Shown here: in pieces, positions 18,894 to 52,272 of the stretch
Position numbering within the stretch: the first letter of the stretch is position 1
How the letters are laid out: every line of letters begins with the position of its first letter
NCBI GenBank assembly: GCA_011364985.1
Contig: RDOC01000002.1
Span: forward strand, 1 to 64,000
Direction: 5' to 3'
From: Candidatus Thorarchaeota archaeon
GTDB taxonomy: Archaea; Asgardarchaeota; Thorarchaeia; Thorarchaeales; Thorarchaeaceae
Length of the DNA stretch: 64,000 nt
Notes under the pieces: model-generated
Databases searched by the model: none
Told to the model about the DNA's origin: nothing
Seen by the model: only the letters and a program-made list of their open reading frames with translations
Position numbers and translations under genes: made by a program

Positions 18894-19055
18894 GTGTAGA
18901 TGAAAACTGGGTGAGATAGAACACGGAAGATAGTATTGAGTTATTGGCAGACCTATGAAAACCCTTAAGAGCCTCACAGGGGCAATTTCCTGTAGCAATA
19001 GCGGATTGGGTATCGTACTCAAGCCTTGTCTTTGCTAAAACAGATGTTTAAGTAA

Positions 19056-19200
19056 AGCGGGTTGGGGAAGCCGCAGAATATCGGATTCGTTCCGGGCTGC
19101 TTCATAGGCCTATCCCGCAGGGCTCATAACCCTGAGATCGGATGTTCAAAATACTGCGCAGGGTCATCCTGCCCGTAGGAATCTCATCCACCCGCTACCA
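19056..19200 (+). tRNA. Initiator tRNA-Met(CAU) with inserts in D-loop and T-loop
   Basis: Acceptor 5' AGCGGGT (19056) pairs perfectly with ACCCGCT (19190-19196); A73 and CCA are encoded to 19200. The anticodon arm is CAGGG-CTCATAA-CCCTG with CAT at 19125-19127. The three G-C pairs and A1-U72 mark an initiator. About 33 extra bases sit in the D-loop (near 19073-19105, with GCAG/CTGC pairing). About 35-38 sit in the T-loop between T-stem arms GGATG (19140) and CATCC (19185), with GCAGG/CCTGC pairing. These look like two non-canonical introns; exact splice points are uncertain. Confidence 0.85.
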
Positions 19201-36446: not shown

Positions 36447-37352
36447 ATGGTTACCGCTCCTCATCCAGATTTTGTAGAAGCAGGTCGTATTGCGGCCAAA
36501 GTAATCGAGGAAGTAGCTAGAGAAGTTCGTCCGAGAGTCAAGGTTCTACGAATTTGTGCTCTTGCCGAAAGAAGGATACTGGAATATGTTGGGAAAAGAG
36601 GAGGAATTGCTTTTCCATGCAATGTTTCTATCAATGAAGAGGCCGCACATTATACAAGCCCTCGAGGAGATACGAAGATGTTTCCGGAACAGGGTCTTGT
36701 TAAAATCGATATTGGAGCACATGTAAATGGGCATATCTCTGATACAGCGGTGACAGTGGACCTTGATGGAACATTTGAAAAGTTCGTTGCCGCGGCCAAA
36801 TCATCTCTCGATGCAGCTATTGATGTTGTCCGTCCAGGAATACAGGTAGGTGAAGTGGGTGCAGAGATTGAGAAAACTATCAAGAGACACGGTCTCAAGC
36901 CAGTTCATCAGCTATCAGGACACCAGTTAAAACCATGGATATTGCATGCCGGAAAGAACGTTCCCAATGTGAGAATAAGGCGAAGTGCGGAAATGAAAGT
37001 CGGGGAAACTTACGCGATTGAACCTTTTGCGACCAATGGGAATGGTACGATAAGAAGTGGTGAGAATGCCTTCATATTTTCAAACAATATGTCAAACAAG
37101 AAGAAGCTTGATAGACTATCCGTTCAGATTCGAAATCAGACCAGACAACGGTTTGGCACATTGCCTTGGGCATCAAGATGGTTGAGAAGTCAGAAAGTTG
37201 ATACAAATACAATCATTGCGACCTTGGTTAAAGCTGGAGTAGTTAGGGAGTACCCAATTCTATACGAGGGCAGAAATGGCATGGTTTCGCAGTTTGAGCA
37301 TAGCATATTTGTTGGAGAAGATGGAGCCATTGTAACAACTCTTCGCAAGTAG
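36447..37352 (+). CDS. map: Methionine aminopeptidase type II (copy 1)
   Basis: 301 residues. Metal ligands: VKIDIGAHVNGHISDTAVTVDL (two Asp), His in LSGHQLKPWILHAGK, Glu in YAIEPFATNG, and Glu in QFEHSIFV. The auxiliary His is in EEAAHYTSP. Removes N-terminal Met from new proteins. It belongs to the archaeal type II class, with the inserted helical segment (RFGTLPWASRWLRS). Followed 67 bases later by a paralogue. Confidence 0.93.
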   Translation: MVTAPHPDFVEAGRIAAKVIEEVAREVRPRVKVLRICALAERRILEYVGKRGGIAFPCNVSINEEAAHYTSPRGDTKMFPEQGLVKIDIGAHVNGHISDTAVTVDLDGTFEKFVAAAKSSLDAAIDVVRPGIQVGEVGAEIEKTIKRHGLKPVHQLSGHQLKPWILHAGKNVPNVRIRRSAEMKVGETYAIEPFATNGNGTIRSGENAFIFSNNMSNKKKLDRLSVQIRNQTRQRFGTLPWASRWLRSQKVDTNTIIATLVKAGVVREYPILYEGRNGMVSQFEHSIFVGEDGAIVTTLRK

Positions 37353-39805: not shown

Positions 39806-39895
39806 CTGTATCAGCTCGACAAATTCCGGTTATGCTTTAACCCTTGTCATTTAGACATTCGGTTGTAGGTATATGAAGCTGATATGGAGAAGTAG

Positions 39896-40042
39896 TGGCA
39901 GCTTGCAGACCTGTCACGCGCTCGCGCAGCGAACATCTTCTGCAACGATCCTAGCATACGTCAGCCCGTGGAATGACTCCAGCAGCTTTTAACTTCCGAG
40001 TTCGGAATGGGATCGGGTGTGCCCTAGGACCTATGGCCGCCA
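39896..40042 (-). rRNA. rrf: 5S ribosomal RNA (enlarged)
   Basis: The minus strand from 40020 to about 39989 reads the 5S core ACACCCGATCCCATTCCG followed by AACTCGGAAGTTAA. Helix I can be formed by TGGCGGC at the 5' end (40042) and GCTGCCA at the 3' end (39896), giving 147 bases against the usual near 120. The extra length lies in the 3' half, where GCAG/CTGC (39927-39944) and CGCG/CGCG hairpins can form. The 5' end and core are clear; the 3' end rests on helix I pairing. It is not adjacent to 16S or 23S genes. Confidence 0.85.
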
Positions 40043-40227
40043 TCGAAGTAGGAGAGACGCCGTGAGTTTTTAAAGATTACCTTAGGTTCATGAATCTTCT
40101 TTCCACCAATGATGGGAAGTTATGCCTTGATGGGAAAAGACGTTTGCAACCCTTTCGATATCCTCGGATATACTATTCAGTCAAAGCTTTACACGCTTGC
40201 GCTTAACCAAATCATTAGGAGAAGCAA

Positions 40228-43934: not shown

Positions 43935-44070
43935 GGGGCGGTGGCCTAGTCCGGCATGGCGACGGGCTCCAGATCGGGGTTCACTTCGAACCTGAATTGT
44001 GGGGTCAGAACTGGCCGTCGTCGTAGAAGACACTCGTCGATCGTGGGTTCAAATCCCACTCGCCCCACCA
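43935..44070 (+). tRNA. tRNA-Trp(CCA) with 59-base intron
   Basis: Acceptor GGGGCGG (43935) pairs with TCGCCCC (44060-44066). The anticodon arm is ACGGG-CTCCAG-intron-A-CTCGT, with CCA at 43969-43971. T-arm GTGGG-TTCAAAT-CCCAC. CCA is encoded (44068-44070). The intron is placed after position 37, 43973-44031 by structure, the standard archaeal Trp site. It is short, and I see no clear C and D box pair (TGATGA, CTGA), so the usual guide RNA may be absent. TATA-like TTATTAT lies about 40 bases upstream. Confidence 0.93.
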
Positions 44071-52154: not shown

Positions 52155-52272
52155 TGGCGCCGAGGATGAGATTCGAACTCATGCGTGACAAAGCACACTG
52201 GTTGGCTTGGTTTGTTTCCGGAGAAACTGATTTTCAAGACCAGCGCCGTAATCCGGGCTTGGCTACCTCGGC
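52155..52272 (-). tRNA. tRNA-Ser(UGA) with 29-base intron
   Basis: Acceptor GCCGAGG (starting 52272) pairs with CCTCGGC (52059-52065 region, i.e. 52159-52165). T-arm ATGAG-TTCGAAT-CTCAT. The anticodon loop is CTTGAA with TGA, and CTGGT pairs with ACCAG once an intron at 52204-52232 is removed after position 37. The long variable arm (GTG...CAC at 52083-52097 offset, 52183-52197) is class II, as for Ser. CCA is encoded. Splice points were placed from structure. Confidence 0.9.

Follow-up and report, generated by a model that had tools for sequence, protein, structure and literature searches.

The initiator tRNA-Met gene in this Thorarchaeota genome is interrupted at two non-canonical positions, one in the D-loop and one in the T-loop. 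The gene occupies 145 nt on the plus strand, at positions 19056-19200 of the 64,000-nt stretch of DNA that was analysed (the window), and encodes its own CCA. We consider it very probable, from genome comparison, that this is the organism's working initiator gene and that it carries two bulge-helix-bulge (BHB) introns, which would be excised by a tRNA splicing endonuclease, with RtcB joining the exons. The inserts had originally been predicted to be non-canonical introns, and the reading of them as introns within a real initiator tRNA is supported because an intron-free homologue has identical exons, BHB motifs can be drawn at both inserts, relatives carry homologous introns, and the genome contains a gene for a putative broad-specificity endonuclease.

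Gene identity and exon boundaries

Archaeal initiator tRNA-Met is marked by an A1-U72 pair, a CAU anticodon and GGG/CCC pairs at the foot of the anticodon loop. The window gene has A1-U72, CAU and GGG/CCC at positions 29-31/39-41, and a full cloverleaf can be read from it, with AGCGGGT/ACCCGCT as the acceptor stem, CAGGG-CTCATAA-CCCTG as the anticodon arm and GGATG/CATCC as the T-stem; the pairing of these acceptor, anticodon and T-stem halves had been anticipated from the letters. A BLAST search of the window genome with the uninterrupted 79-nt initiator gene of G022 (L073), a genome from the same GTDB family, returned three pieces, each at 100% identity, which are the exons listed in Table 1. 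The insert limits follow from this search, since the G022 gene matches exactly these three pieces, and a shift of either insert boundary by a single base loses the identity. The gene is thus laid out as AGCGGGTTGGGGAAGCC-[33 nt]-AGGCCTATCCCGCAGGGCTCATAACCCTGAGATCGGATGTTCAAA-[33 nt]-TCATCCACCCGCTACCA. Excision of both inserts restores a normal tRNA that is identical to the G022 gene at 79 of 79 positions, CCA included. The three-piece match bears out the original prediction of an initiator tRNA-Met with D-loop and T-loop inserts; the predicted size of the D insert, about 33 nt, was correct, whereas the T insert, put at 35-38 nt, is actually 33 nt.

Table 1 Exons and introns of the initiator tRNA-Met gene in the window
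Feature	Position	Strand	Comparison with relatives
tRNA-iMet exon 1, positions 1-17	19056..19072	+	100% identical to G022; invariant in relatives' alignment
D-loop intron (putative), 33 nt, position 17/17a	19073..19105	+	absent in G022; same-site introns in G008, G010, G017, G041, G044; BHB
tRNA-iMet exon 2, positions 17a-59, anticodon CAU, anticodon-stem GGG/CCC	19106..19150	+	100% identical to G022
T-loop intron (putative), 33 nt, position 59/60	19151..19183	+	absent in G022 and G017; similar same-site intron in G020 (L072); relaxed BHB
tRNA-iMet exon 3, positions 60-73, encoded CCA	19184..19200	+	100% identical to G022

As had been foreseen, standard tRNA searches miss the gene: ARAGORN called no gene at 19056-19200, and the Rfam tRNA model placed this interval below its gathering score. 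Genomes of this kind would consequently appear to be without an initiator tRNA.

We rejected the possibility that the gene is a pseudogene because its exons are identical to those of the intron-free homologue. A related scenario, which we regard as quite unlikely, is that an intact initiator gene lies in the quarter of the genome missing from the assembly and that the interrupted copy is unused. The window assembly is approximately 74% complete, and second copies do occur in relatives: G034, from the same genus, has two, one of them truncated, and G008 has two on separate contigs. Against this, the window exons are base-for-base those of the intron-free G022 gene, with no sign of drift, and in relatives that are 97-99% complete (G002, G004, G005, G007, G028 and G038) a 5'-end pattern search finds one initiator gene each, which is interrupted. 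Whether this is the only initiator gene had been raised as a check, and searches of the roughly 74%-complete assembly by BLAST and with the anticodon arm (up to two mismatches) found no other initiator gene, intact or otherwise. Besides the window gene, the anticodon-arm search returned a single CAT tRNA (C16:174560); its first base is G and its anticodon stem is not of the initiator type.

Predicted splice motifs and splicing enzymes

In archaeal BHB introns, the splice sites lie in 3-nt bulges that flank a 4-bp central helix (the strict form), or the motif takes a relaxed form. Both inserts in the window gene fit the relaxed form. In the D insert, the central helix is GAAG/CUUC (four of four pairs), the bulges are CC↓G and AU↓A, and an inner helix CAG/CUG (three pairs) is accompanied by a weak outer helix. 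The T insert combines an outer helix GGAUG/CAUCC with a central helix UUCA/GGAA, in which three of four positions pair and the other is an A.G mismatch, bulges AA↓A and UC↓U, and an inner helix UAC/GUA (three pairs). The stems GCAG/CTGC and GCAGG/CCTGC noticed in the original prediction are present, but in the splice register the inner helix of the D insert is CAG/CTG; the flanking G belongs to the bulge and the flanking C to the central helix.

A BHB prediction at each insert had been suggested as a check. When the register was left free to slide, the best BHB fell on the same boundaries as those defined by G022, for both inserts. With the register fixed, the fraction of shuffled inserts that paired as well as the observed one was 0.0056 for the D insert and 0.0157 for the T insert. 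The free-register scores for the two inserts of this single gene, 0.04 and 0.058, are marginal, so the case rests on the boundaries and on comparison with relatives; free-register scoring performs weakly on single genes and on anticodon introns and was therefore not used alone. Across the class, mean BHB scores were 6.3 against 4.2 in shuffles for D introns and 7.4 against 4.4 for T introns, in relatives that are not independent of one another. The inner helices also show compensatory changes, from CAG/CUG in the window to CCUG/CAGG in G017 and UCUG/CAGA in G044 on the D side, and from UAC/GUA in the window to AGC/GCU in G020 on the T side.

These registers bear on whether the inserts could instead be retained as expansion loops of an enlarged tRNA, which we judge very unlikely. 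Each insert can fold into a hairpin able to sit on its loop, and some 5S rRNAs are documented to retain insertions (PMC7812874), but the inserts interrupt the D- and T-loops, from which the tRNA elbow is built, they are missing or located elsewhere in relatives with near-identical exons, and the BHB registers fall at their exact boundaries.

The window genome contains two splicing endonuclease genes, encoding an alpha subunit of 188 amino acids (L001) and a beta subunit of 213 amino acids (L002). The alpha protein matches the Aeropyrum pernix subunit (E value of 1.7e-46) and keeps the catalytic Tyr, His and Lys, whereas the beta protein is without the His, the pattern expected of an (alpha-beta)2 enzyme with one catalytic (Tyr-His-Lys) and one structural gene product. 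A loop in the alpha protein, RKPKSADF (KPK), aligns with EKPRGADF of A. pernix (K44, P45 and R46), the Crenarchaea-specific loop, and has the conserved lysine beside the active site. The motif GIRKPK is found in this loop in all 30 alpha proteins compared (L001 and 29 class homologues), and most of the 47 class genomes have two endonuclease matches. The loop lysine K44 has been named in reviews as necessary for relaxed motifs (PMC6379350, PMC12397907). Together, these genes suggest that the window genome encodes a putative (alpha-beta)2 endonuclease of broad specificity; a gene for the RtcB ligase is also present. The 'Crenarchaea-specific' loop in Asgard alpha subunits links the same enzyme trait with intron-rich tRNAs beyond Crenarchaeota.

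On the basis of these motifs and genes, we infer a precursor in which the 3' part of the D intron would be base-paired to GAAG at exon bases 12-15, and the 3' part of the T intron to UUCA at T-loop exon bases 54-57. Each pairing would form a relaxed BHB, with a weak outer helix on the D side and one A.G mismatch on the T side. The (alpha-beta)2 endonuclease would cut inside the bulges and RtcB would join the exons, giving a standard archaeal initiator tRNA that would then be used in translation.

Introns across the class, the initiator locus and other RNA genes

A search of the 47 class genomes with a 5'-end pattern identified initiator genes in 32, and 33 complete genes were counted. An exact anticodon-arm pattern found them in only 13 of the 47, because anticodon-loop introns break it. 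Among the 33 complete genes, one (G022) has no intron. A single intron site is occupied in the D-loop in seven genes, in the anticodon loop in nine and in the T-loop in three. Two introns are present as D and T in two genes (the window and G019), as D and anticodon in six and as anticodon and T in two, and three genes (G008, G011 and G020) have all three. By best register, the D introns occupy 17/17a or 18/19; those in the T-loop are found at 56/57 or 57/58, and in the window and G020 at 59/60. G017, G041 and G044 have the D intron alone at the window's site, and G005, G015 and G016 have a T intron alone, which indicates that each insert comes and goes independently while the exons stay intact. 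The window eIF2-gamma shares 79% identity with the protein from a Candidatus Thorarchaeota genome; the initiator gene of that genome, together with its flanks (L033), matches that of G015 exactly, and G015 belongs to the same family as the window genome. In other Asgard classes, where the 5' ends probably differ, the 5' pattern found few initiator genes, several of which are also interrupted.

An interrupted initiator gene is therefore the rule in this class (32 of 33 genes) and not an isolated case outside Thermoproteales; the original view that a multi-intron initiator would be unusual outside that group does not hold. The recurrence also speaks to an assembly or sequencing artefact, which we consider extremely improbable: the window genome is a draft in 22 contigs, yet introns at the same sites appear in other, separate genomes. 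Within the archaeal group that is closest to eukaryotes, the class offers a natural series of zero, one, two or three introns on near-identical exons, which could be used to date intron gain and loss and to test why these introns persist. Normally a single essential gene encodes the initiator tRNA, so that every protein made would depend on the splicing of this tRNA.

The locus itself varies. The leader of the window gene (18946-19055, plus strand) is long, with a candidate TATA-like element near 18960, about 100 bases upstream of the gene. After this element, AGCGGATTGGG (19000-19010) resembles a relic of the tRNA-iMet start, although a match this weak is expected by chance. The equivalent leader in G028 (L079) contains an exact duplicate of the tRNA start, AGCGGGTTG, roughly 70 bp upstream of the gene, and the G032 leader is without the extra segment. 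In G034, two initiator genes lie 2.3 kb apart (L118; G034:C1:421300-424100). The upstream copy has D and anticodon introns and is truncated by a break in the T-arm; the second copy is complete and has anticodon and T introns. This pair suggests an insertion at the locus. A published suggestion for why introns are retained is that they protect tRNA genes from integrating elements (cited in PMC3218864). The truncated copy in G034 and the duplicated tRNA start in G028 are compatible with traffic of integrating elements at this locus, a fit rather than a proof.

The 5S rRNA gene in the window (39893-40044, minus strand) is 152 nt long, compared with 118-121 nt in the 42 further class genomes that gave a match. 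The difference comes with a 32-nt insert after GAAGTTAA, absent in all 42 relatives. The insert fits a BHB register with bulges AA↓A and UA↓U and an inner helix AGCU/GGCU, and its excision would leave a 120-nt 5S rRNA; the fraction of shuffles scoring as well was 0.03 at fixed length and 0.10 at free length. Its hairpin loop, GUCAU, is the same as that of the initiator T intron. We rejected the 5S hairpin TGGAGTCATTCCA as a marker of a genome-wide intron family, as its only other exact match lies outside any recognisable tRNA. We tentatively propose, with rather less than even confidence, that BHB introns turn over rapidly at three sites of the normally single, essential initiator tRNA and that the machinery has spread to the 5S rRNA (40044-39893), the insert of which would be removed by the tRNA splicing endonuclease. 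If the 5S insert is an intron of the same kind, this would be the less expected finding.

Other tRNA genes in this genome are also enlarged, with approximately 10 of the 27 Rfam-detected tRNAs carrying inserts. In the window, a tRNA with anticodon CCA, probably tRNA-Trp (43935-44067, plus strand), has about 60 extra nucleotides in the anticodon loop, and a probable tRNA-Ser(UGA) (52158-52272, minus strand) has about 40 following the anticodon stem, some of which may belong to a long variable arm. A tRNA-Leu(CAA) called by ARAGORN (37043-37144, plus strand) is without Rfam support, folds poorly and is probably false.

Comparison with known systems

None of the open-access main texts consulted gave an account of the Thorarchaeota initiator tRNA. 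A close likeness is with Atabeyarchaeia and Freyarchaeia, also Asgard archaea with several introns per tRNA at non-canonical sites; the available part of that report describes, for three Asgard genomes, introns in 92-95% of tRNA genes, often at non-canonical positions, with more than half having several (PMC11291895). Those are other classes, and that part of the report does not single out the initiator, which is traced here in 32 genomes from the Thorarchaeota class. In Thermoproteales, genes with as many as three BHB or relaxed-BHB introns have been described, at sites that include 59/60 (Sugahara et al. 2008, as cited in PMC4090602 and PMC8450103); these are thermophilic Crenarchaeota, unlike the Asgard archaeon studied here. 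The (alpha-beta)2 endonuclease of Aeropyrum pernix (PDB 3p1z, 3ajv) shares the lysine loop and the Tyr, His and Lys of the alpha subunit with the putative window enzyme, which is from an Asgard archaeon.

Initiator genes in pieces have been reported elsewhere. The tRNA-iMet of Thermofilum pendens is permuted, with a junction at 59/60 (a site shared with the window gene) plus an intron at 37/38, and that of Nanoarchaeum equitans is split (PMC3218864). In contrast to these permuted or split genes, the window gene keeps its parts in the normal order and has two cis introns. As multi-intron Asgard tRNAs and interrupted initiators are already published, the kind of gene is known; the addition here is the lineage series on the initiator tRNA.
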